Below are positions 1-14,212 of a stretch of DNA of 20,237 bases, in pieces. Location of the stretch: IMG/VR virus record IMGVR_UViG_3300021356_000881, positions 1-20,237 of that record. The stretch is one strand, 5' to 3'. Under the pieces are notes generated by a model, which did no database searches, was not told the DNA's origin, and saw nothing but the letters and a program-made list of their open reading frames with translations. Each line of letters begins with the position of its first letter. Position 1 is the stretch's first letter. The translations under genes and the position numbers were made by a program. The DNA is from a virus.

Positions 1-758
1 TAGGTGAATGTCTGATACAGTTCATAGTAATCGAGAGTCGCAACACCGACGAGTTCATAGACAAGATGTTCACGATTCATTTTCTGAACATACTTGTCGC
101 GGATCTCCTTCCACGGCGAGAGCAACTTGTATTCGCCTTCAACAAACAGTTTCTTCATACGGCTGACAAGATATGGAATATCGAAGAACCGAATGTTCCA
201 ACCAGTCACGATGTCTGGACGCTCCTGATCCCACAGGGCAAGGAACGCGAGAAGCATCTCTCGCTCGTCGTCATACTCCCAACACTTGGCACCATCAACG
301 CGGAACGACCCAACACCGAAAGCGTGAACATCACCACCACCAAAATCCACGGTGACGGCGATGATCTTCTCGGTCGGGTTGTCGATCTGAGGGAAACCGC
401 TCTCTGCGGTGGTTTCGATGTCGATATTCGCCACTTTGAGACGATTGAAATCAAAGTCCACCTCATCGGGGAACTCGTCCCCAATGAAGTGGAAAACAGG
501 GTCCGTCACACCATGAATCTCAAATCCAGAAACATCACGATACTTCTCAAGAAACTTCTTGGTCTCGTACATGTTCCCAGCAACAAAAGGTTCGACGGGT
601 TCACCTGATAGTGTTGTCCATTCCGAAGTGTTTTGTGTGGGCAAAAAGATTGTAGGCTTGTAGGGAATCTTGAAAGTTACGGGTTGTCCATTTTGAAAGC
701 CTCGATAGAGAATCTTAGAGCCTTTTACGGCAACATTCGTATAGAAAGTTTGAGTCAT
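1..758 (-). CDS. 43: DNA polymerase gp43, family B, N-terminal part (runs off the window)
   Basis: Replicative DNA polymerase of T4-like phages; only the first 252 residues are in the window. Translating the minus strand from ATG at 758 gives an open frame to the edge. The 3'-5' exonuclease motifs are visible: Exo I is NIDIETT at residues 111-117 (acidic pair D113/E115), and Exo II is GWNIRFFDIPY at 186-196 with D193. These match the T4 gp43 order (D112/E114, then D222). The polymerase palm and fingers lie beyond the window. The ATG overlaps the stop of the preceding gene as ATGA, so translation is probably coupled to the dUTPase/Nmad1 pair. It should share their sigma70-type early promoter near 1690. 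In T4 this gene follows regA; here about 12 kb of other genes intervene. The family call is very secure. Confidence 0.95.
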   Translation of the reverse strand, partial: MTQTFYTNVAVKGSKILYRGFQNGQPVTFKIPYKPTIFLPTQNTSEWTTLSGEPVEPFVAGNMYETKKFLEKYRDVSGFEIHGVTDPVFHFIGDEFPDEVDFDFNRLKVANIDIETTAESGFPQIDNPTEKIIAVTVDFGGGDVHAFGVGSFRVDGAKCWEYDDEREMLLAFLALWDQERPDIVTGWNIRFFDIPYLVSRMKKLFVEGEYKLLSPWKEIRDKYVQKMNREHLVYELVGVATLDYYELYQTFT

Positions 759-1075
759 TCACTCCCCTTGTCGTGGATGTATGCCGAGAGCAGCACCATG
801 TAATTGATTACATCCACTATTGTATCACGAAAACTTTCATCTTCAACATGCATCTTCCCAGAATCTACAAAAGAAGATAAACGGCTCATCTTGTCAGTCA
901 GTCTCACAAGAAAGCCTTGTTCCGTCGAGCATACGCCCATTGACTCTACGCGAGTAAAATTGGCAAAAGGTGTTTTACCTCCTTTGCCGGCATAGTCTCG
1001 GTTCTTAAGAGACATGAGTTCTTGTGCCTCTTTACAAATGTCATTATGATAACGAAGAAGTTCATCGCGTGTCAT
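755..1075 (-). CDS. DUF1599 / nucleotide-modification-associated domain 1 (Nmad1)-like protein
   Basis: Small all-alpha protein of 106 residues. The pattern of a central NRDYAGKGGKTPFANF stretch, a following LVRLTDKMSRL helix and a C-terminal DTIVDVINYMVLL helix resembles the DUF1599/Nmad1 family as I remember it. That family is linked to nucleotide metabolism or base modification in phages and is distantly like MazG-type all-alpha NTP pyrophosphatases. I chose ATG at 1075 because GGAG stands six bases upstream and the dUTPase stop is one base away; a longer GTG reading from 1102 would overlap dUTPase without a good ribosome site. The gene is packed between dUTPase and gp43 (ATGA overlap with gp43), so a role in controlling the dNTP pool feeding the polymerase is a reasonable inference. 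Substrate unknown. It could equally be described simply as a conserved hypothetical protein. Confidence 0.65.
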   Translation of the reverse strand: MTRDELLRYHNDICKEAQELMSLKNRDYAGKGGKTPFANFTRVESMGVCSTEQGFLVRLTDKMSRLSSFVDSGKMHVEDESFRDTIVDVINYMVLLSAYIHDKGSE

Positions 1076-1076
1076 G

Positions 1077-1649
1077 TCAAACTCCAGTTGATCCAAAGCC
1101 ACCCTTGCGGTTAGATCCTCGATCTCTAGTTGGTGTGGCTTCTGTGTAGGTAATGTAACTCACTGAGCGGTATGGCTGAATAAACTCAACCTGTGCAATC
1201 CGATCTCCATGCGTAATCTTGAAAGGCATGTTTGTAGTGTTGTAAAGAGGGACGAATACTTCTTTGTCGTAGTCCGAATCAATCACACCCTCTGCATTGA
1301 TCAGAGTGATACCATTCTTCCACGCCATACCCGATCGAGGATGAAGTCGTGCAGAGAACTCAACCCCCATGTGAAATATCATACCAGTCGGGATCAACGC
1401 TCGGCACTTTGGACCAAGTTCGAACGAAGTCTCGGGAACATCATTGACGAAGGTCACATCGGGCATCGTCTTGTGTAGTTGATTGTAGCAATCGAACCAC
1501 TGAATCTCGCGGATGACTGCGGGCTTGTCCTCGGGTGGGACTGGCGCACGAAGGTGTGCGTGAATGTCTCGACATGCAGCCTCATTGGTGGACTGCTTGA
1601 GAGGCAAGACATTGGGGTATAACTTGTAAATCTTCATAGTCTCTGACAT
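1077..1649 (-). CDS. dut: dUTP pyrophosphatase (trimeric dUTPase)
   Basis: Hydrolyses dUTP to dUMP and pyrophosphate, keeping uracil out of DNA and supplying dTMP synthesis. The family motifs appear in order: motif 1 as AACRDIHAHL, motif 2 as HPRSGMAWKNGI, motif 3 as INAEGVIDSDY (catalytic Asp), motif 4 as GDRIAQVEF, and the C-terminal glycine-rich motif 5 as RGSNRKGGFGSTG. At 190 residues it is longer than the usual ~150, because about 40 extra residues lie between motif 1 and the LIPTG strand. I chose ATG at 1649, which has GGAG 11 bases upstream. An in-frame TTG at 1688 overlaps the -10 box of the promoter and is unlikely to be used; ATG 1637 is an alternative. It is the first gene of an early unit continuing into Nmad1 and gp43. 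Confidence 0.93.
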   Translation of the reverse strand: MSETMKIYKLYPNVLPLKQSTNEAACRDIHAHLRAPVPPEDKPAVIREIQWFDCYNQLHKTMPDVTFVNDVPETSFELGPKCRALIPTGMIFHMGVEFSARLHPRSGMAWKNGITLINAEGVIDSDYDKEVFVPLYNTTNMPFKITHGDRIAQVEFIQPYRSVSYITYTEATPTRDRGSNRKGGFGSTGV

Positions 1650-1714: not shown

Positions 1715-2035
1715 TCAGGTATCGCTTGGATCATAAAGAAGAGGTCGAACACAAGGCTTGTTGATCGCTACTTCTGCTGCCGCGTCGATGTCTCCGAGAA
1801 GAGTGTTGAATACAACAGCGACAGCGTTAATGTCTGCACCAGTCAAACGACTAATACCCTGAGACTCTCTTCCGTCTTCAACGACAGAGGCATCGTTGGG
1901 GAAACCTGCACTCAAGCCACTATCCCACTTTACTTTCCAATCCTTACCTCTTGCGCACATGTAACGAAGGTTTTCGCACATGGGTCGGATGTATTCGTTG
2001 ACAAACTTAATTTCTTCTGGTCCTGTAATAGACAT
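1715..2035 (-). CDS. Small late protein of unknown function (probably virion-associated)
   Basis: Hypothetical protein of 106 residues, soluble, with no signal peptide or membrane segment. A mostly helical N-terminal part (VNEYIRPMCENLRYM) is followed by a central DGRESQGISRLTGADI stretch. I have a faint memory of small phage proteins from structural clusters with a similar 'NE..RP ... DGR ... ITGADV' layout, but I cannot name a function. The ATG at 2035 has a very good ribosome site (GGAG six bases upstream). A T4-type late promoter lies immediately before it, so it is expected to be made late, with the fibre and beta-helix proteins, and not with the replication genes that follow. A small structural, assembly or chaperone role is an inference from that timing only. 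Confidence 0.6.
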   Translation of the reverse strand: MSITGPEEIKFVNEYIRPMCENLRYMCARGKDWKVKWDSGLSAGFPNDASVVEDGRESQGISRLTGADINAVAVVFNTLLGDIDAAAEVAINKPCVRPLLYDPSDT

Positions 2036-2062
2036 GATATCTCCTTTAATTCGATACGATTA

Positions 2063-2070
2063 TATTTATA
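2063..2070 (-). promoter_or_regulatory. T4-type late promoter (TATAAATA)
   Basis: The minus strand carries TATAAATA at 2070-2063, an exact match to the -10 element recognised by the T4 late sigma factor gp55. It starts immediately after the stop of the beta-helix gene and stands about 28 bases before the ATG of the 106-aa gene, the normal late-promoter distance. A TATAAT overlaps its downstream end (2064-2059) but has no good -35. Confidence 0.75.
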
Positions 2071-3309
2071 CTAAAACACATCACCAAACTCTGGAACTGA
2101 TCCACCCGCTAGTTGAGTAAATGCCTTAAGCATCACACCAAGACCAGCAGAGGTGCTGAAGTGATTAAACAAAAGTGTATCGCCGAACGCAATGCCCAGG
2201 TCCGACCCATTACCATCGTGAGTCAATCCAAACGATGCTGCGGTAGGTCCATATCCACCTTTTGTTGACCATCCCCACCTATCCCATGTCGCTCCGAAAG
2301 GTAGACTATGAACACCAGATGTTACATTTTGATATACCTCACCCTCCCAGTGAAGTTTCCCGTCTCTTCTTCTTGAATCTGCTCTGGGATTAATTTCAGT
2401 CGCGGATCCACTTGTGTATTTGTATATGTACCCGCCTATGTCATTATACAAATTACCATAAAAGTTTCCCGCTTTGGGGTGATTCAACTCAGTTGATGAT
2501 CTTTTTGGCTCTATATCAAAACAATCTGTTCCAATATTATCAAATATATTATTTACTAATACATGCAGACCATCTCGGCTGGATCTGGTTTCAAATAGTA
2601 TTGAATAGTCATCTATGTCTTTAAATCTACAATTATGAAGACCCCCACCCCTAAAGTCTCTAATACCTTGATCTAAGTTTATAACTTCACACGCATCAAG
2701 ATTTACGCTTCCAGTATTAACGCTACCCATACGATTCGTGACTCTCGCAAAAGCATTAGAACTGCCTCTCTTTATAAACTTACAGTTTCTAAACAAGTGA
2801 CTAGCATTATCCATAGAACCGAATGGTCTAGTAAATGTTCCGTAGTCCAGTCCACCTGCTTGATCTGTAAATTCACAGTTGAGAAAGGCAGAACAGATAC
2901 TACCACTCGTAAAAGTACCCACACCACCAACAAACGCGATGTTGTGAAAATGAAACCCTTCCAATTCACCGAATGTGCAATTGGTCGCAGAGTCATTTCT
3001 ACAACCCAAGACATATTGTGTGCCGTCTTGAGCGAGAGTGGAGGAATTAACGGATCGAAATATAATGACTGATGCGGTGCTTCCGTGATTGGCAGATGCA
3101 TTTGCCTGATTCCCGAAACCAGTGGACTGTCCTATTTCATCAGTTCCAGCATCGGTGCCGCTCGCCATCAAGTTGACCAGATCACCGAGAACTAGTCCTC
3201 CAACCAAAGTCCCATCGAATAATTCAGCAACCGAGGAAAACGCATCGTTATTTGCGGTTCCTGAGTTTGCACTATCCCCGTTGATTGGATCAACATAGTA
3301 GACGGTCAT
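2071..3309 (-). CDS. Parallel beta-helix protein B (tail fibre/tailspike-like, late)
   Basis: Protein of 412 residues, probably a surface-exposed virion component. It opens with YYVDPINGDSANSGT (residues 4-18), the start seen in many right-handed beta-helix (pectate-lyase-fold) phage adhesins. The body is a run of short strands rich in N, G, S, F and C with ladder-like phrases such as NCTF, NCEF and NCKF. No lyase or hydrolase catalytic set was recognised, so enzymatic activity is not claimed. It is a diverged paralog of the gene just before it: both open with (F/Y)Y(V/I)DPxNG, followed by FSS(V/L)A and then a DGT or DGD turn. The ATG at 3309 overlaps the previous stop (ATGA), so the two are probably translated as a pair from the late promoter near 5945. 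Which virion part carries it cannot be told from this window. Confidence 0.72.
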   Translation of the reverse strand: MTVYYVDPINGDSANSGTANNDAFSSVAELFDGTLVGGLVLGDLVNLMASGTDAGTDEIGQSTGFGNQANASANHGSTASVIIFRSVNSSTLAQDGTQYVLGCRNDSATNCTFGELEGFHFHNIAFVGGVGTFTSGSICSAFLNCEFTDQAGGLDYGTFTRPFGSMDNASHLFRNCKFIKRGSSNAFARVTNRMGSVNTGSVNLDACEVINLDQGIRDFRGGGLHNCRFKDIDDYSILFETRSSRDGLHVLVNNIFDNIGTDCFDIEPKRSSTELNHPKAGNFYGNLYNDIGGYIYKYTSGSATEINPRADSRRRDGKLHWEGEVYQNVTSGVHSLPFGATWDRWGWSTKGGYGPTAASFGLTHDGNGSDLGIAFGDTLLFNHFSTSAGLGVMLKAFTQLAGGSVPEFGDVF

Positions 3310-4655
3310 GATGTTACCCTCGCTTGTTCCGTTTCTGTTCCACCTGCTGCGCCAGATGTTCCGCTGTTCAGGAATCCAGCACCACTAGATATTGCACCAA
3401 TACCAAAGGTTCCAGTTATACCTAAAGCCGATGTTGGGAAGTATTGTAATGTTACTCCATGTGTTGTCGAATCTATTTCTAGAGTTAATCCTGTAATAGA
3501 AACATTTTCTGAAATCCCACCCAAGGATCCGTCACCAGTGAACCCATTATGTATCCCGCCATCACACGCCAGAACATTCGGACCAATAGTACCAGAAGTG
3601 CAATTCTGAAATACATTTTTACGAATTGCAAAGGATAGAGGATATTGTGGTTCATAAGAAGAGTCAGAATTAACTGCGTATGCTCCGATGTCTACAAATA
3701 AGTTATTGATAATTACTGGCGAAAACTTATTTGTTGCATTTCCAATGTGTATTGCATCACCATCTATATTATAAAAAAGATTATTGGCAATATAAAGTCC
3801 TGTTGATTTACCAGTTCCCTGATCTGGAAAAACAAAACCACGGTCACAACTATAAATTAGGTTTCCATAAAAACTATCAGGGGAACTTGCGTGCTGATAT
3901 GCATCTTTCCATCCAGTGAACACGCAACCAATAACATAATTATGCTGACCATACTGGGCACCCATCTTCTGTATGCAATCTCTTGGTGTTGATACATCTT
4001 TACCTGGCCCAATAAATTCACAATGTTTAAATGAATTAGACGGGTTAACTGATGCGAATAAAGGATAGTTACCATGATTATTAAAAGGACCACTCCAGTC
4101 CCATTTACAGTTAATGAAATAGAATCCATCTCCACCACTGGTGAATGCGTAGAACTTCCCAGCATATTCTTGAGCGATATTGTTCCATGTTATGTTACGA
4201 AAACATTCACCCACCCCATTCTGATCAAAAAACTCTCTGTTGTTATTTGTAACATCCGTGTCTGCTGGATCATACGGATCCCAAAGTATTTCGTAACGAG
4301 TTCCATCTTCCTCTAAATTTGTATTAACACCGATAAATGTTGCTGGACCACCATTAGGTGTAATATGAAAATAATTGTTGTAAACATTATGTCCCCATCT
4401 AGTAACATCGGCTTCAAAAGAATAGTTGTGGTAGTTGCCTTTTGTTGCGTCAGCAGATATGACATCTCCCGTAGATGCAATCAGATAGTAAACATCGCCA
4501 GTTCCACCATAAGTTGCGGGATCTGCATCACCGTCCCAAAGAACATCTGCGAGGGAGGAAAAGGGTCCGACACCCCCACCTGGGGTTCCAGATGTAGTTC
4601 CATCGTTCGAGGCAGAACCATTTAGCGGATCAATATAAAATATTCTCCCCGTCAT
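3306..4655 (-). CDS. Parallel beta-helix protein A (tail fibre/tailspike-like, late)
   Basis: Protein of 449 residues. The N terminus reads FYIDPLNGSASNDGT (residues 6-20) and is followed by repeated short beta-strand turns (NCKWDWSG, HCEFIG, GCVFTG, NNLFYNI, NNLFVDI, KNVFQNC) that look like the rungs of a right-handed beta-helix. The C-terminal ~50 residues are G/S/T-rich and less regular, as in a capping or trimerisation region. No catalytic site was recognised. It begins three bases after the fibre gene's stop (4659) and overlaps the next beta-helix gene by four bases, so fibre, A and B look like one late transcript. Likely roles are receptor binding or surface-polysaccharide contact. Tandem duplication followed by divergence is the simplest origin for A and B. 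Confidence 0.72.
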   Translation of the reverse strand: MTGRIFYIDPLNGSASNDGTTSGTPGGGVGPFSSLADVLWDGDADPATYGGTGDVYYLIASTGDVISADATKGNYHNYSFEADVTRWGHNVYNNYFHITPNGGPATFIGVNTNLEEDGTRYEILWDPYDPADTDVTNNNREFFDQNGVGECFRNITWNNIAQEYAGKFYAFTSGGDGFYFINCKWDWSGPFNNHGNYPLFASVNPSNSFKHCEFIGPGKDVSTPRDCIQKMGAQYGQHNYVIGCVFTGWKDAYQHASSPDSFYGNLIYSCDRGFVFPDQGTGKSTGLYIANNLFYNIDGDAIHIGNATNKFSPVIINNLFVDIGAYAVNSDSSYEPQYPLSFAIRKNVFQNCTSGTIGPNVLACDGGIHNGFTGDGSLGGISENVSITGLTLEIDSTTHGVTLQYFPTSALGITGTFGIGAISSGAGFLNSGTSGAAGGTETEQARVTS

Positions 4656-4658
4656 ATA

Positions 4659-5918
4659 TCAACCCTCATAGTTTACGAACAACTGCACGGCACCTGGCAG
4701 TCCTGCACCAGTGACACCACCGAAAAGCAAGTCTCCGCTGGAAAGTGATGTTGAGTCTAAGGTTCCTCCAGTTGCACCAAATACTCCATCGGCCACGGTA
4801 ATGTGAGCGATCTGAGTCTTGTTGCTGTTGAGGGAAGCACCAGAAACTCCAATCAAATCAGAACCTACCTTGAAGATGAAACCCGTAACGGTGCCACCTG
4901 TTGCACCATCTGGTAATCTTATAGAAAGATCCGTGACAGTTGAAGCCTTTTCTACTGGTCTGATAACACCAGTTTTGGTTTCTGCTGCAACATTTGAACC
5001 ACGACCATCATAAAGAAAACCTGCAACATAAGAAGTTTTTGCGGCAGTTGACTGAAAGGTTCCATCGGAGAAGGTGATACCACCAGCATCCATCGAGATA
5101 CCCGCTCTTGCATGGAGAAGGTTGGGAACATCGTTCGCTCTGTTTGCACCAGTGACAATAATTGTTCCCGTGGAAGCATCCACTCTACCGACTCTCACAA
5201 CCTTCTGGACTAGATCAGATCCGCTACTAGGTCTCTCTAGAGTCAGACCACCGCCTGGAGAAACATAGAGTTCGTCATTGGATGTATACCCCGCAGTATT
5301 GAACTGGTCGATACTGCCACCGATGGTCATAAAACCTTCGTCGTTCGTAGAGAAAGCAGTCGATACAATACCCGCAGCAGGCATCTTTGCAGAATCAGAT
5401 GCGTCTGCCTTTGCAACAGTTACGCGATCAGATGCTCCAACATTACCTGTGATGTAGACTGGATCACCAACGGCGAGTGCTTCGTCTGCCTTGATTTTCT
5501 TCTGCTGAGGACCAACCATAGCACCGTCGAAGTGACCCTGGCCTCCTAGTGCAACATCGGTTCCGTCGAAGGTGAAGTCTTCTGATCCAGTGATACCAAG
5601 ACCATTGTGGAACAGAATCTGATTGGTGGTAACACCCGCTGCTACTGCTCCTGTGAATCCCGCGAATGAAGTGACTCCACCAGGCTCTACTGTAACAGCA
5701 CCCGTCTCTCCGTTAACACTAACAACAAAGTTTTCGTTTGTGGAACCAGCAACAGTCCATACATTCCCAGTAGTGGTTCCCCCTGTCTGTTCGCGGAAGA
5801 ACATTTTTCCATCGGACGCATTGATAGCAACCTCACCGAATGAAATGGCGGTATGACCAGGCACACTTGATGCCGTGTCACTTCTCTTCAAGAGTATTTC
5901 GTTAGGTCCAGTTGTCAT
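4659..5918 (-). CDS. Tail-fibre-like structural protein
   Basis: Protein of 419 residues with the composition of a phage fibre: rich in G, T, S, A and V, with few charged residues. The N-terminal LLKRSDTASSVPGHTAI followed by FGEVAINASDGKMFF is a start I associate with phage fibre and receptor-binding proteins. Next come repeated collar-like phrases (VSVNGETGAVTV, SFAGFTGAV, FTFDGTDVALGG) and a longer domain around residues 135-260 (VGDPVYITGN ... SNDELYVSPGGGLT). No C-terminal intramolecular chaperone motif was recognised. The ATG at 5918 has GAGGAG upstream, and a late promoter of the NATAAATA class stands about 25 bases ahead. It leads a late unit with the two beta-helix genes, suggesting that all three contribute to one appendage. 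Exact position in the virion is not determined. Confidence 0.78.
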   Translation of the reverse strand: MTTGPNEILLKRSDTASSVPGHTAISFGEVAINASDGKMFFREQTGGTTTGNVWTVAGSTNENFVVSVNGETGAVTVEPGGVTSFAGFTGAVAAGVTTNQILFHNGLGITGSEDFTFDGTDVALGGQGHFDGAMVGPQQKKIKADEALAVGDPVYITGNVGASDRVTVAKADASDSAKMPAAGIVSTAFSTNDEGFMTIGGSIDQFNTAGYTSNDELYVSPGGGLTLERPSSGSDLVQKVVRVGRVDASTGTIIVTGANRANDVPNLLHARAGISMDAGGITFSDGTFQSTAAKTSYVAGFLYDGRGSNVAAETKTGVIRPVEKASTVTDLSIRLPDGATGGTVTGFIFKVGSDLIGVSGASLNSNKTQIAHITVADGVFGATGGTLDSTSLSSGDLLFGGVTGAGLPGAVQLFVNYEG

Positions 5919-5940
5919 GGATTCTCCTCAGATTATACTC

Positions 5941-5948
5941 TATTTATC
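5941..5948 (-). promoter_or_regulatory. T4-type late promoter (GATAAATA) ahead of the fibre unit
   Basis: The minus strand reads GATAAATA at 5948-5941, fitting the NATAAATA form reported for marine T4-like phages and one base off the T4 consensus. It overlaps the stop codon of the upstream glycosyltransferase gene and stands 22 bases before the fibre ATG. A TATAAT follows at 5937-5932 but has no credible -35, so the late reading is preferred. Confidence 0.65.
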
Positions 5949-7224
5949 GTTTTGCCTTCTGTTGCTTTTTTCTCTTCATGGCTTTTTGCTTCTCTCTTCG
6001 CTTTTCTGCCATTTCTTTTTTCTTTTGATTATCTGCTTTCAACGCCTCCTGCATCTGTTGTTGCTGCTGATGAATCTCCATCAGTTTTTGCTTGTAGACT
6101 TCTGCATTTTGCATGATTCTTTGCTTTTCTGTTTCGGGGACACGATCATTCTTAAGCAATTCAACACAAGCAGCGTATCCCCGCTGAAAATCGTGAGTGT
6201 AAAAAGCACACGCAGCAAATTCATCCAATGCTTGCCATGCATATACATCACCAGAGATGAACAGAATATCTCCCTCGGGATAGTTAATTTCGCAAGCAGT
6301 CTTGGCGTAAAGATAACCAATCCTTGGCTCGTTTCTTTCTTGTCTGTGAATTCTTGCGAGTTGCCAAAGAGGTTCTGCTCTACTGGGACGCAGGGCATAT
6401 GATTGAAGATAGAGTTGAGATTGTTCAGTAAATGGCTTGTCTGTAATCGACGAGATGATTGCCATGCGATACGCAGAGTACCACTGCTCCTCTTCCCATC
6501 CACCAGCGACAACTCGTCTCTTGTAAGCCTCCATCGCCTTGTCCCACTGTTGCGAATCAAAGTACGACTGTGCAAGGTAGAACATATAGCGATGATTCTC
6601 TGGCTCGTCCTTCAGGGCCTCCTCTAGAATCTCTGCGTCTCTCGAATACTTCTGAATAGGATCCTGAGTCTGGTTTCGCTCATGACCCATAGTTCGGGCT
6701 TCAATGTAGTAGTCACCCTCTACCTTGCGAGTTTCTCTTCCCTCTTTGATGTCGCAGTCTGCATGTTCGTGAAGAACACCGATATAACGCCAGTTGACAT
6801 CGGCACCAGTCTTGAACACCTGATTACGCCACCAAACAAAATCCCCACGCTGAATGCGAAGAACATAGGAGGTAGCATCCATTACCTCAGGCCAAGCAAA
6901 TCCCTTCTCTCCTACAAAAATGAAGTCGTCTGCGTCGATGACCCACGCATACTTAGCCTTACCGTCGCAGTTTCTAAGCGACTCGGTTCGTGATCCAATC
7001 TTACCACCATGATCACCGAAGCCCTTCCAGTCAGACTGATAGACCTCGCCAGGGATTCCTTTTTCCTCAAAGAAGTTCTTGATGATCTCCTGAGTTCCGT
7101 CAGTCGAACCAGTGTCGGTAATGTCGTAGCGATCGATGTACTTATAAACAGAGTTTAGACACTCAAGGATAATGTCCTTCTCGTTCTTTACAATCATGCA
7201 CAATGTAATTTGAGGTAATTCCAT
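5944..7224 (-). CDS. Family 2 glycosyltransferase with TPR-like repeats and a basic C-terminal tail
   Basis: Predicted GT-A fold enzyme transferring a sugar from a nucleotide donor. The N terminus reads ITLCMIVKNE, then TDTGSTDGT (36-44), the classic GT2 nucleotide-binding start, and DADD (97-100) supplies the metal-binding DxD. From about residue 190 to 270 the chain has TPR-like helical pairs (AEILEEALKDEPENHRYMFYLAQSYF as two pieces, then WDKAMEAYKRR). The last ~60 residues are a Q- then K/R-rich stretch, probably coiled coil or disordered. The ATG at 7224 has GGA upstream. It lies between the aminotransferase and the fibre gene, so it may transfer the cluster's sugar onto the neighbouring fibre or onto a cell-surface glycan; target unknown. 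The basic tail is unusual for GT2 enzymes and could bind nucleic acid, membrane or protein. Confidence 0.85.
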   Translation of the reverse strand: MELPQITLCMIVKNEKDIILECLNSVYKYIDRYDITDTGSTDGTQEIIKNFFEEKGIPGEVYQSDWKGFGDHGGKIGSRTESLRNCDGKAKYAWVIDADDFIFVGEKGFAWPEVMDATSYVLRIQRGDFVWWRNQVFKTGADVNWRYIGVLHEHADCDIKEGRETRKVEGDYYIEARTMGHERNQTQDPIQKYSRDAEILEEALKDEPENHRYMFYLAQSYFDSQQWDKAMEAYKRRVVAGGWEEEQWYSAYRMAIISSITDKPFTEQSQLYLQSYALRPSRAEPLWQLARIHRQERNEPRIGYLYAKTACEINYPEGDILFISGDVYAWQALDEFAACAFYTHDFQRGYAACVELLKNDRVPETEKQRIMQNAEVYKQKLMEIHQQQQQMQEALKADNQKKKEMAEKRREKQKAMKRKKQQKAKR

Positions 7225-7233
7225 TATAATTCC

Positions 7234-8328
7234 TTATAGTTTATATTCGTTTAATACTTTCACAATTTTAGTTTTATCTTGTTCTGTTAACCACCAACCA
7301 CATGGGACATTCATCATTTTAGAATCAAAAAAATCCAAACCAGGCAAATCATTTTTCTTGAACTTATCAAAAACACTATATCGCAAATTGCTAACATGAG
7401 CAGAGTCTGTTGCGATTCCATTGTCCATCATGTATTTTCTAAAATCTTTTTTGTCTTCTACTAAGACACTAAACAACCAAGAAGAAGATACTCTGTCTGA
7501 ATAACTATCCATAATTGTAATGTTTGGATTATCGATATTGTCTCTAAAATATCTTGCGTTTGATATATGTTTATCTATTAACTGATCTATTGTTTCCAGT
7601 TGACGCAATCCTATGACGGCATTAATATTATTCATGTGAAACTTATACCCACACTCTGGTATGTCCTGCTCCCACCTAGATGCACATTTGAATTGTCTGT
7701 CTAATCCAAACCATCTCAACTTTCTAATTCTAGTTGCATCTTCCTCCGACTTACATACGATTGCACCCCCATCCACGGTGGTTAAATGTTTAACTGCTTG
7801 AAAAGAAAAACAAATATAATCTCCATGATTGCCGATCTTTTTACCTTTATATTCTGATCGGAGTGCGTGTGCGGCATCCTCCACAACCTTGATGTCATTT
7901 TTTTCTGCGATATCTAATATTTCTTCCATGTCACATGGCTGTCCACCCCAATGCACAACTATGATCGCTTTTGTTTTTTCAGTAATCTTTTCTCTGATAC
8001 TATCTGGACATATATTTCCTGTCTTTGGATTGATATCAGCAAAGACAAGATTCGCTCCTGTATGATAGAATGGTTCATTTGTTGCCATGCATGTCATGGC
8101 AGTAGTTATCACTTCATCATCAGAGGAAAGATCTAGCATATGTGCCGCTAGGTGTAAAGCACTGGTACATGAATTCACCAGACATGTATTTGGATTACCA
8201 ATATACTCTCCTAGTTTTTTCTCAAACTCATCTGAGTAATCCCCTTCGGTAACAAAACCAGTATCGAATACATCCTGTAATGTTTCGCCTATGTTTTCGG
8301 GGACATACACTTTCATCAATGGTATCAT
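7234..8328 (-). CDS. DegT/DnrJ/EryC1/StrS-family sugar aminotransferase (PLP-dependent)
   Basis: Transfers an amino group, typically from glutamate, to a keto-sugar nucleotide. In this 364-residue protein, GFVTEGDYSDEFE (24-36) and SCTSALHL (53-60) are family motifs. VVEDAAHAL (148-156) holds the Asp that contacts the PLP ring nitrogen, and SFQAVKHLTTVDGGA carries the PLP lysine (K180). I chose ATG at 8328, with GAGG 11 bases upstream overlapping the previous stop; in-frame starts further up lie inside the SDR gene. Upstream is an SDR of the UXS/ArnA type and then a formyltransferase, the same three parts as ArnA plus ArnB. A 4-amino sugar nucleotide product is therefore likely, though a 3-amino hexose route cannot be excluded from sequence alone. 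AT-rich like its upstream neighbours. A possible promoter lies at 8375-8404. Confidence 0.9.
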   Translation of the reverse strand: MIPLMKVYVPENIGETLQDVFDTGFVTEGDYSDEFEKKLGEYIGNPNTCLVNSCTSALHLAAHMLDLSSDDEVITTAMTCMATNEPFYHTGANLVFADINPKTGNICPDSIREKITEKTKAIIVVHWGGQPCDMEEILDIAEKNDIKVVEDAAHALRSEYKGKKIGNHGDYICFSFQAVKHLTTVDGGAIVCKSEEDATRIRKLRWFGLDRQFKCASRWEQDIPECGYKFHMNNINAVIGLRQLETIDQLIDKHISNARYFRDNIDNPNITIMDSYSDRVSSSWLFSVLVEDKKDFRKYMMDNGIATDSAHVSNLRYSVFDKFKKNDLPGLDFFDSKMMNVPCGWWLTEQDKTKIVKVLNEYKL

Positions 8329-8341
8329 AATTTTAAAATCC

Positions 8342-9397
8342 TCAATCGGCGAACACCGTTCCACCATAATATAAATTATACTCGCTGTTCTTGTACTTAG
8401 TCAAGACATATTCGTAAGTATTTTTAATCCCATCCTCAAACGAGGTGGAGGGTTTGTTTCCAAACTTAGATACAATTTTTGAGATGTCTGGTTTTCTTCT
8501 GTTGGGTTCGTCCTTTGGATAAAAAGATGGGTGTTCTATGATCCTAAGATTATCCATATTGCCATCTAAAATTTCATAGGATGTTTTACATACATCATAT
8601 GCAGACATTTCTATATCCTCACTACCTACATTAAACACCTCCCCGTTTGAATCGGATAAAAGCACTTTAATCATAAGCAATATGGCATCAGCAACATAGC
8701 AATATGTTCTAGTTTGTTTTCCGTCCCCGTAGACAGACATGATATCATTTTCTGCAAGACTCTTGCATAGATTTGCCATCATTCTCCCATCATCCAATCT
8801 CATGTATGGTCCGTATAGATTAAAAGGACGGATGATTTTCACGGGTAGGTTTTGTTCGTTGTAAAAAATATCGGAGAGGGTTTCTATAACAAGTTTACCA
8901 ACATCATAACAACTCCTGCTACTCATGGTTGGAATTTGTCCTGTGTATGTTTCTGGTGTTGGAATATGTTCTGCGGGTGGATCACCGTAGACCTCACTGG
9001 ATGAAAACACCATAACAGACTCTGCCTCGTCCATAAGAGCCTTATTAAACACATTAACCGTTCCCGTATAAGAAACATCTAAAGTTTTAAATGGTTGCTT
9101 CTTGTACCATTTCGGTGAGGCTATCCCGGCACCATTGATATAAAAATGACACTTCGGAATAGACTCCGAAAAATTAGAGTTAGTAATATCTAAACTATTG
9201 GTGTCCCCATGTATAACTGTGCATGACTCGGACTTGGTGTATACATTTTTGTTTAGATAATCAAAGAAAGAGAGAAACCAACGCCCTAAAAATCCGTTCG
9301 TCCCTGATATAAAAATGTTTTTGTTTTTAAATCTTTCTAATTCTTCGCCTGACAATTTCGATACTATATTTTTCAAATCTCTATCAATTACTTTCAT
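8342..9397 (-). CDS. Extended SDR: UDP-glucuronate decarboxylase (UXS/ArnA-C)-like nucleotide-sugar epimerase/dehydratase
   Basis: NAD-dependent nucleotide-sugar enzyme of 351 residues. The Rossmann glycine motif is SGTNGFLG (31-38). SSSEVYGDP (132-140) carries the Ser/Thr and Glu seen in decarboxylases, and SCYDVGK gives the catalytic Y164xxxK168. IRPFNLYGP (189-197), VYGDGKQTR (222-230) and NRRKPDISK (299-307) are all close to UXS and to the C-terminal half of ArnA. Those enzymes oxidise and decarboxylate UDP-glucuronate to a 4-keto-pentose. The first ~25 residues are an extra helical lead. The ATG at 9397 has AGGA eight bases upstream and overlaps the formyltransferase gene by 14 bases. 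With the aminotransferase downstream it forms a keto-sugar-to-amino-sugar pair. A 4,6-dehydratase or 4-epimerase activity is the main alternative. Confidence 0.85.
   Translation of the reverse strand: MKVIDRDLKNIVSKLSGEELERFKNKNIFISGTNGFLGRWFLSFFDYLNKNVYTKSESCTVIHGDTNSLDITNSNFSESIPKCHFYINGAGIASPKWYKKQPFKTLDVSYTGTVNVFNKALMDEAESVMVFSSSEVYGDPPAEHIPTPETYTGQIPTMSSRSCYDVGKLVIETLSDIFYNEQNLPVKIIRPFNLYGPYMRLDDGRMMANLCKSLAENDIMSVYGDGKQTRTYCYVADAILLMIKVLLSDSNGEVFNVGSEDIEMSAYDVCKTSYEILDGNMDNLRIIEHPSFYPKDEPNRRKPDISKIVSKFGNKPSTSFEDGIKNTYEYVLTKYKNSEYNLYYGGTVFAD
8375..8404 (-). promoter_or_regulatory. Possible sigma70 promoter for the aminotransferase and GT2-TPR genes
   Basis: Inside the 3' end of the SDR gene the minus strand has TTGACT (8404-8399), an 18-base spacer and TATAAT (8380-8375). 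This is five of six and six of six matches to consensus, about 45 bases before the aminotransferase ATG. It could allow expression of the downstream genes separately from the upstream ones. In AT-rich coding DNA such matches can arise by chance. Confidence 0.4.
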
Positions 9398-9962
9398 TGT
9401 ATAATTCCTTCACATCAATTGGATCTACTTTGTATTCACGCTCTAATATTCTAGGGCGTTCTATAATACATTTACCTACACTCTCCACACTCATGCCTGC
9501 GATTAGTTTTAAGCAAGAAACCACAAAGGAAGGTGCTATTGAACATTGCTTAATATATAGACTTGTTTCTGTGTCCTCTGGTAGCACTGGATATGTTATT
9601 TTACTAACTATGGGTCCATGATCGTATTCATCTGTCATTCTATGGAATGTTAGTCCCTGTTCCCTCTTTCCCTCATTCAATGTATGTCTAAGAATATCAA
9701 GTCCTCCAAATTCAGGCAGCAATCCCGTGTGAAGGTTGAATGTTTTTGAGTTTGATTTTATGAGAGAATCGTACTGAACAGATATGGCTAAATCATAATC
9801 ACAATTAATAGTGGTTTTTTCCAGTGAAACATTTCCCGGGACCGTGGATCTGATAGAGTTGGGAACATATCCTATCAAGTTAAAGTTGTTCGATTTCAAT
9901 TCATCGACGACCAACTCGGTTAAATATGTTGATCCAAGAATTAAAATTTTATCAATGTTCAA
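9384..9962 (-). CDS. Formyltransferase-family protein (probable sugar N-formyltransferase)
   Basis: Short member (192 residues) of the methionyl-tRNA/sugar N-formyltransferase fold, which uses N10-formyl-tetrahydrofolate. The catalytic triad is visible: FNLHTGLLPEFGG gives N76 and H78, and GLTFHRMTDEYDHGPI gives D114. The spacing is close to ArnA N102/H104/D140. The N-terminal Rossmann part (ILILGSTYLTELVVDEL) is shorter than in tRNA formyltransferases, and there is no C-terminal tRNA-binding domain, which favours a sugar substrate. The only reasonable start is TTG at 9962: an upstream stop closes the frame, no earlier ATG exists, and GGGAGAG stands about six bases ahead. It overlaps both neighbours (11 and 14 bases). 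Followed by SDR and aminotransferase genes, it probably formylates the amino group they install. Confidence 0.8.
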   Translation of the reverse strand: MNIDKILILGSTYLTELVVDELKSNNFNLIGYVPNSIRSTVPGNVSLEKTTINCDYDLAISVQYDSLIKSNSKTFNLHTGLLPEFGGLDILRHTLNEGKREQGLTFHRMTDEYDHGPIVSKITYPVLPEDTETSLYIKQCSIAPSFVVSCLKLIAGMSVESVGKCIIERPRILEREYKVDPIDVKELYNESN

Positions 9963-10878
9963 ACCAACTCTCCCATTCCGATTCTGTACATTCTAAAAAC
10001 GCATCGACTCCCATTCCTACTATTTTAGCACCACTTATATCTTTTAATTTAGAATCCGTTTTCCATATCGAACGATCGCCCCAGTAACCTTTCTGCTCTG
10101 ATGCCATCGCTCCTATTATTATGTTCACACCACCAAAGTATGATGCAATTATGGCATTACCACCGGGAGTGCTGAAGTGTATATCTGATAAAGAATGCAT
10201 CATACACTGCAATTCGTTATAATTTAGATGAGGGTATTGCACAAAAAGATCGGTATCAACTATCATTTCATGGTGGTTTTCTTTTATTAGATGCTTGTCG
10301 TTCCATTCCATAATTAGGTTGTCGTCTTGCACATATCCCTTGGTACTAGACTCTGGTCTGAAGTAAATAATGGTATGCGTATCTTTAAACTCATTGTAAA
10401 TTTTAGAGATGCAATCATTGTCTATTACATTAACTGGATTAAGCCCATGCTCTTTGCTATATTTGTTGTTTATAACCACCAAGGGTTTATCAAATCTTTC
10501 ATTCATACCGCACTCTTTTGCAAGTTTCGAAAAGTGTGACTTGAAGTCGGGAAATGAAACCCTCTGCATTTTAGTATCGTGTTTATAATAGTCATGATAC
10601 CCAACACCAACGGCATTCCAATAGTTTGCCATCTGACCACTGTCGGCAGGTTCAACGGTGATCTTTTTACCGCATGGGGCTGTGCGTGTAAATTGCTCTA
10701 GTTCTAAATCGTCGTGGTGATTTTTTGACCAAAAGTAAAAACAGGATGTCTCGGGGAGAGAATGTGTATGAACATCAAGGTGTGGTAAATTTTCCACAGC
10801 ATAGTTCATGTGAGGTATTCCGACATGCAAAAGAAAACTAAATTCTTGGTGTAAGAACATATCAAATCTGTCTGTCAT
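9952..10878 (-). CDS. Putative glycosyltransferase-like protein (GT-B-like C-terminal half)
   Basis: Protein of 308 residues that I cannot assign firmly. The C-terminal half has FSTPGGNAIIASYFGG, which looks like the donor-binding stretch of GT-B enzymes, where small residues precede a helix and identify a protected nucleotide-sugar site. Before it, KPLVVINNKYSKEHG and IIYFRPESS resemble strands around the domain boundary. No signal peptide or membrane segment is seen. It overlaps the previous gene by four bases (ATGA) and the formyltransferase by 11, with GGAG five bases before the ATG, so it is plainly part of the same transcript. Context (sugar-transfer genes upstream, sugar-nucleotide enzymes downstream) supports a sugar-transfer role, but another carbohydrate-related function is possible. 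Confidence 0.5.
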   Translation of the reverse strand: MTDRFDMFLHQEFSFLLHVGIPHMNYAVENLPHLDVHTHSLPETSCFYFWSKNHHDDLELEQFTRTAPCGKKITVEPADSGQMANYWNAVGVGYHDYYKHDTKMQRVSFPDFKSHFSKLAKECGMNERFDKPLVVINNKYSKEHGLNPVNVIDNDCISKIYNEFKDTHTIIYFRPESSTKGYVQDDNLIMEWNDKHLIKENHHEMIVDTDLFVQYPHLNYNELQCMMHSLSDIHFSTPGGNAIIASYFGGVNIIIGAMASEQKGYWGDRSIWKTDSKLKDISGAKIVGMGVDAFLECTESEWESWFEH

Positions 10879-11738
10879 ATTGACTCCAGTGCGATTTTCA
10901 TATTAAACCCGATTGACTCGGCTATAATTTCATCAATCAAGGACTGGTGTTGTTCGTAGGGTCTAGCGGGAAACGAGTCAACAAAAAATCCTTTGGCTAT
11001 CATTTCTCGTTGGGTGTCTGTCAATTTTGTTTGGTTCCAAAAATTCATGTCAAAATCAGGCAAACCAAACGACACCATAGTGTTAGGTGATCTATCTATT
11101 CTGTGAGCATATCTCATCTGGATAAAGTTAGGTAGATCTATATTAGCCAACTTTATATCATTCCTAATAGAACAATATCTAAACAACGACTCATCAGAAA
11201 ACCGATCGAACGGGTTACTCGTTTGTTCCTTTGAGTCAATAGGATCTTCTATCTTGGAGTATGTTACAAGCAAATCTTCAAAAGTAGACTCATCATTCAA
11301 ACCCAAAAGTTTTCTAAATCCACTGGGTCTAGCAGTGGTAAAATACATGGGCCACTTTCCCTGTTCACTTGTATTTTGGTAAGCGTTTGCACCAAAAGCA
11401 AGAATGTCTGCTTCCTCTTCCAGTTGCATGAACTTATTCACGCCAGATTCTACAAACTTAATGTTGATCAAGATCTGATCTACATCCAGCAGTGTGTAAA
11501 AGTCATCTGGCAAAGTAGATGCGAGATAACTCCGTGCAAGTTTTGCCTGCACACCAGAATCATAGCCAGGGATAGGTCGGAGATTCAATACAGAATCACA
11601 ATCAAGACCATCAATGTTTTCGTTGTCAGACAAATACGCAAAATGAATCTTGTATCCCAATTTTTTGTAGTATTCGCAAACAACTTTAGCGAATCCAAAA
11701 TATGTGGGATTATCGTTACAAGACATCACAAAGTTCAT
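10875..11738 (-). CDS. Putative GT-A-type glycosyltransferase (DVD motif)
   Basis: Protein of 287 residues. The N terminus begins with a short strand (MNFVMSCND), then an alpha/beta segment with YKIHFAYLSD. A helix containing GVQAKLARSYLA (62-73) is followed by FYTLLDVDQIL, whose DVD (85-87) fits the metal/nucleotide DxD of GT-A enzymes. Later, FSDESLFRYCS resembles the D/E-rich acceptor-side segment in similar proteins. The exact family was not recognised. The ATG at 11738 has GGAG eight bases upstream and overlaps the previous stop by four bases; the stop overlaps the next start in the same way. Base composition turns AT-rich from this gene onward. Donor and acceptor are unknown. Confidence 0.6.
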   Translation of the reverse strand: MNFVMSCNDNPTYFGFAKVVCEYYKKLGYKIHFAYLSDNENIDGLDCDSVLNLRPIPGYDSGVQAKLARSYLASTLPDDFYTLLDVDQILINIKFVESGVNKFMQLEEEADILAFGANAYQNTSEQGKWPMYFTTARPSGFRKLLGLNDESTFEDLLVTYSKIEDPIDSKEQTSNPFDRFSDESLFRYCSIRNDIKLANIDLPNFIQMRYAHRIDRSPNTMVSFGLPDFDMNFWNQTKLTDTQREMIAKGFFVDSFPARPYEQHQSLIDEIIAESIGFNMKIALESI

Positions 11739-12433
11739 ACCAAAGTCTCCTTCTTATCCAGAACATCCCTATCAGCCTGTGACCAGATAGTATCATCTTC
11801 TCTCACTGCCTCACCCACAAAGTAAACCATCGCGTTCGGATCACGCTCTGGGGTAGGAAAGGGTGCGTTCTCTGTGTAGAAAGGATCGTGAGTAACATTG
11901 TCTGTCATAGCGAGAGGCCAAACAAGACCCCACAAGAACGCTTGATCGGCTCCCTTGGCATCTTTGTGGTAGTTCCCATTCAAGAACTGCTGAATCTTGA
12001 GTCCCATGTTCATTCTAGCAGTTCTTTTCATTCCCCACATACCGCCCATGATCGCTGTGGTATGGTAGGGATGATCTCTCATGACATGGAAGTTCTTGTT
12101 GGACTCCATCCACTCATCTACTGCTTCCTTCTCCCTGATGGACAGACGAGAATCTGTGTCTCTGGAAATGAAACACTCAACATCCTCGTCGTCACATGCA
12201 GTGAATCGCCACATCATTGAATTGGGTGTACCCTCTTCGTCCATGACTACGACTTCTGTGTTGTCATACGCCTTCAGTCGCTCAATGACTTCACTGGGGG
12301 TGTTCTTCCCAGCGACATAGTATCGACAAATCCACTCAGGATAAATCTCCTTGGCGAGTTCTGCGTTCTTGCAGGCACCCTCAAGGTAGAATGGGTTGTC
12401 TCCCCAAAGAGAAAAGGTGATCAGTTTCTTCAT
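11735..12433 (-). CDS. Glycosyltransferase-like protein (DTD motif)
   Basis: Protein of 232 residues. It starts ITFSLWGDNPFYLEGACKNA; then CFISRDTDSRLSIREK supplies a DxD-like metal site (DTD), followed by FHVMRDHPYH and IMGGMWGMKR. This arrangement, with the sugar-donor Asp pair followed by a 'RDHP..H ... GGMWG' segment, is one I associate with glycosyltransferase-like proteins of large viruses and bacteria, although I cannot give a CAZy number. I chose ATG at 12433 because it forms an ATGA overlap with the preceding gene's stop and has GGTGGTGA before it. An in-frame start 12 residues earlier would lie inside the upstream gene. GC content resembles the upstream GT2 genes more than the AT-rich genes that follow. 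Confidence 0.65.
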   Translation of the reverse strand: MKKLITFSLWGDNPFYLEGACKNAELAKEIYPEWICRYYVAGKNTPSEVIERLKAYDNTEVVVMDEEGTPNSMMWRFTACDDEDVECFISRDTDSRLSIREKEAVDEWMESNKNFHVMRDHPYHTTAIMGGMWGMKRTARMNMGLKIQQFLNGNYHKDAKGADQAFLWGLVWPLAMTDNVTHDPFYTENAPFPTPERDPNAMVYFVGEAVREDDTIWSQADRDVLDKKETLV

Positions 12434-13053
12434 TGTGTCACCACCGATTCTGTTCCCTCGGATGTCCAACGATAGATGTGCAAGAAGTCATCCATCTTGT
12501 ACGATCGAAGAACCTTGGGGTAGAGTCTCATCAGCCAATGAATATCCTCACAGGACTGACCATTAGCAGAATAATACTCCTCGAATGCCTCGGACTGGGC
12601 AAGTTCAGTCTTCCAACAACACCAGTGGTATGGTGGTCGAAGGGTGTCCCTGTAGTTTCCTTTCTCGTCTAGAAGAACGGGATCATGTGGATTACCCATC
12701 TCACAAAACACGCGAGCGTGCTTTCCGTCAAGATATGTGTCCTGATTGAACGAGATAACATCCCACGAAGGATCTTCGCCAATCACCTCAGTCAGACGAG
12801 AGATGTAGTTGTCGGCGATGTCATCATCGTCATCCAGCCAGCACAGGTGACTACCTCTAGCCGCTTGTAGAAGAACATTTCTCTTCTCGTAGATGTGAAG
12901 AGACTTGTTGTCGATGAACGATAGGACTTCGACATCTTCTCGATCACCAATCTGGGCGAGTAGTTTATTTTGTAGGATTTCGTATTCTCGTAGCCGAGAA
13001 GGAATTGAAAGAATAAGAATACTAAGTTTGATCTGCGACGGGTCTTTCGGCAT
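12430..13053 (-). CDS. Family 2 glycosyltransferase
   Basis: GT-A fold enzyme of 207 residues. LSILILSIPSR (10-20) is the first strand. A middle helix (EKRNVLLQAARGSHL) leads to CWLDDDDDIADNY, where D74-D78 provide the DxD that binds metal and the nucleotide donor; this is the clearest GT2 signature in the block. Near the C terminus, CEDIHWLMRL looks like the ED catalytic-base segment of GT2 enzymes. The ATG at 13053 has GGAG seven bases upstream. The gene overlaps the preceding GT by 32 bases and the following one by four, so its translation is probably coupled. Short for GT2 but complete. Donor and acceptor unknown. Confidence 0.85.
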   Translation of the reverse strand: MPKDPSQIKLSILILSIPSRLREYEILQNKLLAQIGDREDVEVLSFIDNKSLHIYEKRNVLLQAARGSHLCWLDDDDDIADNYISRLTEVIGEDPSWDVISFNQDTYLDGKHARVFCEMGNPHDPVLLDEKGNYRDTLRPPYHWCCWKTELAQSEAFEEYYSANGQSCEDIHWLMRLYPKVLRSYKMDDFLHIYRWTSEGTESVVTQ

Positions 13054-13753
13054 CGAGACGCTCCTTCACTGAATTCATATCAAAATCAATCTTCATTCGC
13101 TCCTGATAGATCGCTCCATCCTTAGCGTACATTTCTGCATTCTCGTTTCTCTGATGAAGAGCGTCGGCTTCGGGGTGGTCGCCAGGAACCCACGCATGTC
13201 GAATGATGCAAGTAGGCGACTTCGCAAGAATGTTCATCTTGGCGAACAGGGCCGTCATCTCAGTATCGCAATACAGAGAAGTGTAATCGGGATGATAGAG
13301 ATGACCCATCGCTCTATAGACAGGGAAACCAAGAACAGGAAGTGTCATCAGAAGATCATCTGGTCCGCGAAGACCATCGTTGAACTTGATGGCACCACAG
13401 AAGTCAGGGAAGATCTGGTTGAATCCCTCGGCGATGATGTCGTCCCATCCTTCAAGGCAGGGAACCATGTCATCACTGACGAGAACAAGAATGTCTCCGT
13501 CTTCACCTTCAAGATCGGCATTACATGCCTCGATCTTGGTCTTCGAGTGTCCGTAGTTATACTTGAGATCAATGTCCAAAGAGTCCAACCACTCCTTGAT
13601 CTCAGGCGTGTTCATAGTAGCATCGTCTTCATCCATCGTGATGACGAAACGAAGTTCGTGTTTCCCCGAAAGGAAGTCGATGTACTTCTGTAGAACCTGC
13701 TTGAATTTTTCTGGACGAGATCGAGTTGGAAATTTAACCACAATTTTTGTCAT
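13022..13753 (-). CDS. Glycosyltransferase, GT2-like
   Basis: Protein of 243 residues and first gene of the sugar-transfer run. VVKFPTRSRPEKFKQVL (5-21) is the typical GT2 opening strand plus TRxRPEKF helix. FVITMDEDD (36-44) and ILVLVSDDMVP (88-98) give two acidic clusters, the second in the DxD position. HAWVPGDHPEAD further on is the likely acceptor-side segment with conserved His. The ATG at 13753 has AGGA ten bases upstream, and the regA stop is 16 bases before it. No strong promoter is visible in that short gap, so expression may come from read-through of the replication operon or from a weak element inside regA (13824-13852). GC content is about half, like the replication genes. Confidence 0.75.
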   Translation of the reverse strand: MTKIVVKFPTRSRPEKFKQVLQKYIDFLSGKHELRFVITMDEDDATMNTPEIKEWLDSLDIDLKYNYGHSKTKIEACNADLEGEDGDILVLVSDDMVPCLEGWDDIIAEGFNQIFPDFCGAIKFNDGLRGPDDLLMTLPVLGFPVYRAMGHLYHPDYTSLYCDTEMTALFAKMNILAKSPTCIIRHAWVPGDHPEADALHQRNENAEMYAKDGAIYQERMKIDFDMNSVKERLDAERPVADQT

Positions 13754-13769
13754 AATAAAGATTCCTTTT

Positions 13770-14177
13770 TTACTTTCTCCTACCTATATGGTATTTAGGT
13801 ACGAGTTCCCAATCCCTCTTGTCATTATACGAAATAATTTTGATTTGTGCAAGAGAAACCTTCGGCTCTTTCACCTTCGACGAATCTACAATAGAAAGAA
13901 GACCCCACTCTTCCAAGAGAGAGGTGATGGTATTTCTTCTTCCTAAATCGGTTTCACTTATATCCGTTGGTAAACCGTCCAACGCGAACAATTCTTTGAA
14001 GTGAACGATGTAATATTTTCCACGCTTGTGCAAGATGTGGCAAGACTGATATAATTTGTTTTCGGTTCGTGATGATACACCGATACGAGTAAGTGTTTCT
14101 CTCACCTTGAGAAAATCATCTTCCTCCTCTAGTGTTATCTCAACCAAGTCTTCCACAGATAATTCTATATGTTCCAT
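13770..14177 (-). CDS. regA: RegA translational repressor
   Basis: RNA-binding protein that, in T4, blocks translation of many early mRNAs (including those of clamp and clamp-loader genes) by covering their start regions. Close similarity to T4 RegA is readable across the whole 135 residues: VEITLEEEDDFLKVRETLTRIG, read in two parts, then YQSCHILHKRGKYYIVHFKE, then RRNTITSLLEEWGLLSIV and WELVPKYHIGR at the C terminus. The N terminus has about nine residues more than T4. I chose ATG at 14177, which has GGAGG six bases upstream; a TTG further up would put that ribosome site inside the coding region. In T4 the next gene is 43, but here the glycosylation and fibre island follows. Confidence 0.95.
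   Translation of the reverse strand: MEHIELSVEDLVEITLEEEDDFLKVRETLTRIGVSSRTENKLYQSCHILHKRGKYYIVHFKELFALDGLPTDISETDLGRRNTITSLLEEWGLLSIVDSSKVKEPKVSLAQIKIISYNDKRDWELVPKYHIGRRK
13824..13852 (-). promoter_or_regulatory. Weak candidate promoter inside regA for the glycosyltransferase run
   Basis: The minus strand has TTGCAC (13852-13847), a 17-base spacer and TATAAT (13829-13824). The -10 is perfect but the -35 matches only three of six bases. It is the only promoter-like element near the start of the glycosyltransferase run. Low confidence. Confidence 0.22.
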
Positions 14178-14212
14178 TAAAAACCTCCATACTGAACACA
14201 ATATGTAGGATT

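Follow-up and report, generated by a model that had tools for sequence, protein, structure and literature searches.

A phage gene cassette with a predicted route to an N-formylated 4-amino-4-deoxy-pentose

Three adjacent sugar-enzyme genes in a T4-like phage fragment

The IMG/VR virus record IMGVR_UViG_3300021356_000881, analyzed over its whole length of 20,237 bases (the window), is a fragment of a marine T4-like phage that carries on its minus strand three adjacent genes encoding an N-formyltransferase (FT), a short-chain dehydrogenase/reductase (SDR) and a pyridoxal phosphate (PLP)-dependent aminotransferase (AT). We interpret this cassette as a pathway by which the phage would make a 4-amino-4-deoxy-pentose carrying an N-formyl group, and give the three-enzyme chemistry a probability of about 0.68. 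This figure covers the chemistry only; it is shared by the alternatives that concern the destination of the sugar but not by the hexose and arn alternatives considered below, and the likelihoods of the several readings do not add up to one.

An earlier inspection of the letters without database searches (the sequence-only reading) had described the genes as a split ArnA/ArnB-like set encoded in a row, with one overlap of 14 bases and one gap of 13. All three open reading frames (ORFs) proved open, adjacent and intact at those coordinates (Table 1). The FT and SDR genes overlap by 14 bases, and the gap between the SDR and AT genes is 13 bases when AT starts at 8328 (MIPLMKV...), its likeliest start and the start position of its relatives; the PLP lysine is K180 from this start and K193 from the ATG further upstream, at 8367. 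The catalytic residues singled out at that time are all present and are invariant in relatives, namely N76, H78 and D114 of FT (8 of 8 sequences), Y164, K168 and the Glu of SSSEVYG, E135, in the SDR (7 of 7, as is R301), and the AT lysine within SFQAVKH (12 of 12). Chance origin of the triplet is excluded by the Pfam E-values (DegT 1.6e-89 for AT, Epimerase 1.8e-33 for the SDR, Formyl_trans_N 2.3e-16 for FT) together with its recurrence in four other viral contigs.

Assignment of the three enzymes

The SDR is the decisive enzyme. Its best PDB relative is human UXS1 (2e-34), with ArnA at ~4e-13 or weaker, and a seven-sequence SDR profile scored 191 bits against UXS vs ~105 bits against ArnA. 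Matches from a plasmid collection, where annotated, were mostly UDP-glucuronic acid decarboxylase family proteins. In a motif comparison the SDR matched UXS at SSSEVYGDP, RSCYDVGK, RPFNLYGPYMRLDDGR, GKQTRTYCY and RRKPDI, and LDDGR is also among its decarboxylase motifs, whereas RmlB-type enzymes show STDEVYG/STDEVFG, PYSASK and PGHDLRY. The decarboxylase catalytic set is kept, with Glu (E120 of human UXS1) as E135, the YxxxK pair as Y164/K168, Arg (R277 of human UXS1, R619 of ArnA) as R301, and Asn as N193. In a 50-sequence tree the seven phage SDRs formed a single clade (100/99) that falls within a decarboxylase group of UXS, ArnA and phage sequences (92/94); they were placed as sister to ArnA at 83/77 only. 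The approximately unbiased (AU) test did not reject a UXS-only grouping of the phage SDRs (p = 0.35) but rejected an RmlB grouping (p = 0.00036). These comparisons assign the SDR to the UDP-glucuronate decarboxylases (UXS/ArnA) and place it no further from UXS than from ArnA.

Other identities were considered for the SDR. A 4,6-dehydratase of the RmlB type is ruled out by the AU test and by the presence of SSE where these enzymes have their TDE (Thr-Asp-Glu) motif. UDP-glucuronate 4-epimerases have a Ser at the acidic position of the decarboxylases (Ser128 of BcUGAepi; PMC7984243), where the SDR has Glu135. The sequence-only reading had named dTDP-glucose dehydratases, and 4-epimerases lacking the decarboxylase Glu/Arg pair, as identities that would speak against it; the SDR instead lies in the decarboxylase clade and has both E135 and R301.

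The SDR also differs from UXS, with Ser for the triad Thr, Val/Ile for Glu in YDEGK, and the Pro in RPFN, the last two differences being shared with ArnA. The triad residue before Ser-Glu is Ser in all seven phage SDRs, while Thr is conserved in the UXS/ArnA family. Ser is the usual residue of SDR triads, and we took its substitution for Thr as non-excluding. In EvdS6, the final reduction involves the triad Thr (T126) and an Asn, and loss of the Thr favours the keto product (PMC10338323). The SDR keeps that Asn and has Ser at the position equivalent to the EvdS6 Thr, so that release of a ketone is plausible from its sequence.

The best PDB relatives of AT are AtmS13 (4zwv, 6.7e-69) and CalS13 (4zas, 9.4e-61). 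The latter entry is titled CalS13; 4zwv and 4xau, whose titles say only putative aminotransferase, we take to be AtmS13. AT carries the PGLD...P.GWWLTE.D motif of these aminotransferases and groups with them in a tree in which a 100/100 branch splits that group from ArnB. Orthology to ArnB is ruled out by this branch, and the PRK11658 score was 193 bits vs a cut-off of 631. By sequence, AT is therefore assigned to the AtmS13/CalS13 type and not to ArnB. In the aminopentose pathways of AT2433 and calicheamicin, the glucuronate decarboxylases AtmS9 and CalS9 release a 4-keto pentose for transamination, a step assigned to AtmS13 and CalS13 (PMC10338323), although the transamination step of AtmS13 itself is described as postulated (PMC10951976). 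The phage cassette would resemble these pathways in its pairing of a decarboxylase with a DegT aminotransferase; they differ from it in the use of TDP sugars, in C2 deoxygenation and in N-alkylation, where the phage cassette N-formylates.

The AlphaFold model of FT has a predicted local distance difference test score (pLDDT) of 87.9, and its top PDB folds are WbkC, ArnA-N, WlaRD and QdtF. The top 19 are all sugar N-formyltransferases, with methionyl-tRNA formyltransferases close behind. Judged from this model, FT folds like nucleotide-sugar N-formyltransferases rather than with the folate enzymes acting on non-sugar substrates that the sequence-only reading had named as an alternative. FT is without the C-terminal part of ArnA-N.

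These assignments bear on whether the cassette is a transferred copy of the arn pathway of lipid A modification (polymyxin resistance), which we regard as extremely improbable. The arn enzymes share the same folds and the three reaction types (decarboxylation, amination and formylation in the lipid A 4-amino-4-deoxy-L-arabinose pathway), and ArnA-N is among the best matches of FT. However, ArnA fuses its formyltransferase and decarboxylase whereas the phage genes are separate and overlapping, AT belongs to another clade than ArnB, FT is short, and neither the window nor six related loci (these records being fragments) yielded arnC, arnD, arnT, arnE or arnF. The ArnA/ArnB-like chemistry and the pentose route of the sequence-only reading are supported, given the grouping of the SDR with decarboxylases and the sugar N-formyltransferase fold of FT, whereas a literal ArnA/ArnB set is not, as the SDR is no closer to ArnA than to UXS and the other two proteins depart from the arn enzymes as described. 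An unverified record, OQ572407 (Pseudomonas phage Y5), from which ArnA and ArnB were taken as references, seems to contain an arn operon of bacterial, probably host, origin.

Linkage and exchange of parts in related contigs

We gathered related loci by scanning viral contigs with the SDR and AT and with FT and SDR alignments, which gave 12 further contigs with the SDR clade. These loci (numbered with the prefix L) were found through the cassette genes themselves, and the counts therefore describe linkage and not prevalence. The SDR clade lies directly upstream of AT in 13 of 13 viral contigs, the window included, and this extends to non-syntenic phages. An N-acyltransferase precedes the SDR in all 12 contigs that have upstream sequence: FT in five (the window, L002, L003, L008 and L065) and a GNAT protein in seven (L007, L010, L098, L100, L101, L102 and L104, of which L101 and L102 are near-copies). 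The complete FT-SDR-AT triplet occurs in four other contigs; L002 and L003 are syntenic with the window, and L008 and L065 were not shown to be so. In L003, an FkbM-family methyltransferase gene (7347-7988) lies between FT and the UXS-type SDR, and may O-methylate the sugar.

A search of viral contigs with the single FT sequence gave no match, while an FT alignment found 25 loci. An AT is found no more than 1.7 kb from the FT-family gene in 20 of 23 distinct loci, and two of the remaining three are at the end of a contig. Bacterial relatives of FT were found at one locus only, in a Patescibacteria metagenome-assembled genome, where an FT-family domain and a GNAT acetyltransferase domain form one protein, encoded next to a related aminotransferase (L056:5998-7122).

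The keto-sugar maker varies between relatives. Two contigs syntenic with the window (L029 and L030) keep FT and AT and have an RmlB-type 4,6-dehydratase in place of the SDR, and its counterpart in L021 and L044 is a gene of the RmlC type. In the AT tree, the phage ATs with a UXS partner branch from within those with an RmlB-type partner, and L006, whose AT is 66% identical to that of the window, has an RmlB-type partner inside the UXS-partnered group; therefore, AT has changed partners on more than one occasion. Four AT residues (R170, V192, C145 and C356) track the UXS partner, being present in 7 of 7 UXS-partnered ATs vs 1 of 19 others, a count made on related sequences, so that its p value overstates the association (the test is non-independent).

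The cassette is exchangeable, and the version present in the window is the one for a formylated pentose. This suggests that phages vary their own sugars by enzyme swapping. We give an even chance to a broader proposal, namely that these phages carry an amino-sugar module built around a constant DegT AT, to which different keto-sugar makers (of the UXS, RmlB or RmlC type), formyl- or acetyltransferases and glycosyltransferases can be joined, that replacement of one gene changes the sugar displayed, and that the version in the window is the first viral 4-formamido-4-deoxy-pentose route. Such a module would resemble O-antigen switching in bacteria. Other arrangements were seen around RmlB-type partners. 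In L061:2371-4374, L063:1535-3577, L066:1538-3577 and L081:1535-3577, AT is the C-terminal half of a ~680-aa protein followed by FT and an RmlB-type SDR; the N-terminal half, tested on L063, gave no family identification. Near RmlB-GNAT-AT cassettes, L011:10041-10763 and L014:9825-10541 encode a polysaccharide deacetylase-like protein starting MKKICLTFDDGLESH.

Proposed chemistry and destination of the sugar

In the proposed route, the SDR would oxidise UDP-glucuronate (possibly dTDP-glucuronate) at C4, decarboxylate it and release an NDP-4-keto-pentose; AT would convert the 4-ketone into a 4-amine using PLP and an amino donor; and FT would cap this amine from N10-formyl-tetrahydrofolate to give a 4-formamido-4-deoxy-pentose. 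The orf308 product and further glycosyltransferases of the surrounding island would probably attach the sugar to a surface glycan. We infer the release of the NDP-4-keto-pentose, as well as the stereochemistry, nucleotide and acceptor of the sugar.

UDP-glucuronate may come from the host. It could also be supplied by a short UDP-glucose-dehydrogenase-like protein encoded by the closest relatives, L002 and L003, with the catalytic Cys region kept in L002; in L007 and L010 such a gene is beside the cassette. Short genes of this kind (266-322 aa, lacking the UDP-binding domain normally present at the C-terminus) occur in 14 of 29 contigs (e.g., L002:10144-11019; also L003, L007, L010, L018 and others).

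Several observations weigh against the pentose route or its proposed use. UXS chemistry normally runs on to UDP-xylose (PMC10338323), ketone release is not decided by sequence, and the residue corresponding to EvdS6 T126 is changed only to Ser in the SDR. AT relatives 50-55% identical work with hexose enzymes, and the 66% identical AT of L006 adjoins an RmlB-type enzyme; AT alone is therefore no proof of a pentose. No gene for making UDP-glucuronate was found in the 20 kb window, and UDP-glucose dehydrogenase genes show no enrichment in contigs with the UXS (6 of 11 vs 8 of 18, p = 0.71), an equal frequency that is therefore compatible with the pentose route without being evidence for it. The surface role of the sugar is read from neighbouring genes. 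The first points also suit a reading in which the SDR makes UDP-xylose and AT and FT act on a hexose from elsewhere, such as dTDP-4-keto-6-deoxyglucose, the three genes not forming one pathway, and RmlB-type dehydratases do partner most close AT relatives. We consider this quite unlikely in view of the strict position of this SDR type upstream of AT, also in non-syntenic phages, of the AT residues that track the UXS partner (with the reservation on related sequences made above), and of the lack of a separate RmlB-type gene in the window, where the sole RmlB match is the SDR itself.

Table 1. Cassette genes and neighbouring features of the window
Feature	Position	Strand	Basis
FT: nucleotide-sugar N-formyltransferase (predicted), 192 aa, catalytic domain only (N76, H78, D114)	9384..9962	-	Pfam, AlphaFold model, residues
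SDR: UDP-glucuronate decarboxylase, UXS/ArnA type (predicted), 351 aa (S133, E135, Y164, K168, N193, R301)	8342..9397	-	PDB relatives, motifs, tree, AU test
AT: DegT-family PLP aminotransferase, AtmS13/CalS13 type (predicted), 364 aa (377 aa from ATG 8367)	7234..8328	-	Pfam, PDB relatives, tree
orf308: glycosyltransferase-like, GT-B-like (weak)	9952..10878	-	Model, recurrence beside cassette; 11-base overlap with FT start
orf287: GT-A-type glycosyltransferase suggested, DVDQ motif	10875..11738	-	Weak relative beside cassette in L065
orf244: conserved glyco-island protein	11735..12469	-	Relative in L065
Glycosyltransferase phrog_8858	12430..13053	-	1.2e-21
Glycosyltransferase phrog_14945	13022..13753	-	2e-08
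GT2 glycosyltransferase, TPR-like C-terminal part	5944..7224	-	Pfam GT2 3.2e-11
Three tail fibre/spike-like ORFs	2071..5918	-	Sequence style, without database match
regA	13770..14201	-	Translat_reg 2.8e-43
DUF1599-like protein (nucleotide modification associated domain 1)	755..1102	-	Weak Pfam match, below cut-off

The cassette is flanked by putative glycan genes (Table 1). The orf308 model is of low confidence (pLDDT 54), with TagF and GT9 as best folds, and gives at most a weak hint of a GT-B-like protein. An orf308-family protein adjoins UXS-AT cassettes in seven contigs, and orf308 is probably the transferase for the cassette sugar. The GT2 glycosyltransferase downstream of AT is kept in the syntenic relatives L002, L003, L029 and L030. 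Searches of Pfam, NCBIfam and PHROG with orf287 gave no match. The fibre identity of the three ORFs is a reading of sequence style with no database family behind it.

From these neighbours, a glycan of the virion or its fibres is the most likely destination, followed by the host envelope and then by DNA. A comparable viral system is the UDP-viosamine pathway of Mimivirus (R141-L136-L142), which likewise joins a 4-keto sugar maker, a sugar aminotransferase and an N-acyltransferase and provides N-acetylated viosamine for the virion fibres (PMC4691112), but concerns a hexose, N-acetylation and a eukaryotic virus.

Addition of the sugar to the host envelope during infection instead of to the virion, as in O-chain or capsule remodelling that might block other phages, is a doubtful alternative. 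Glycosyltransferases of related marine T4-like SAR11 phages have been interpreted in this manner (PMC7029224), and a 2024 report of arnA (K10011) enrichment in ocean viruses invokes lipid A and membrane remodelling (PMC11360552). Against it, the island glycosyltransferases adjoin fibre-like ORFs, and a lipid carrier transferase, flippase, deformylase and ArnT were undetected in the window and six related loci (the record being a fragment). A role in lipid A is not indicated, and use in a surface glycan fits better. The cassette also offers a better explanation of the ocean-virus arnA signal than lipid A remodelling. The accessible portion of that report treats arnA as a single gene and describes neither a cassette nor an exchange of partners or linkage to an AT. 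Since virus-enriched arnA was already reported, the novelty here is in the cassette anatomy and part-swapping; a search of an open-access paper collection, which lacks most subscription papers, turned up no account of a viral route to a 4-formamido-pentose. Viral rare sugars have mainly been worked out in giant viruses, and in phages the genes for sugars mostly appear in lists of dispersed auxiliary genes. In the present cassette all three steps of a route can be read, with its decisive enzyme assigned against named alternatives, and the natural part-swaps make both the sugar a phage makes and its destination directly testable.

Decoration of phage DNA, like the arabinose of RB69, appears very unlikely. 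Pentose-modified DNA is known in T4-like and other phages (RB69, PMC6024577; Thanatos, PMC12838424), and the island sits in the replication gene cluster. Nevertheless, several glycosyltransferases exceed the needs of base modification, and a dCMP-hydroxymethylase/thymidylate-synthase family match was found in only 1 of 9 related contigs, with none in contigs of 102 and 191 kb. The accessible portions of both papers mention no aminotransferase, and that on RB69 arabinosyl-hydroxymethylcytosine, a pentose modification in a T4-like phage, describes arabinose on DNA and neither amination nor formylation.

The minus-strand order of the window includes RNase H, gp45, gp44, SET, gp62, regA, the island, dUTPase, the DUF1599-like gene (Table 1) and, next to it, the DNA polymerase start, several gp names having been assigned from position and T4 resemblance. 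By gp44, the closest isolates are marine T4-like phages (~57% identity), and megablast found no near-identical phage isolate for the window. The ~12 kb island (1715-13769) of glycan and fibre-like genes lies between regA and dUTPase/DNA polymerase (3-758) and interrupts the T4 core order 45-44-62-regA-43. L002, L003, L029 and L030 likewise have glycan genes directly after regA.

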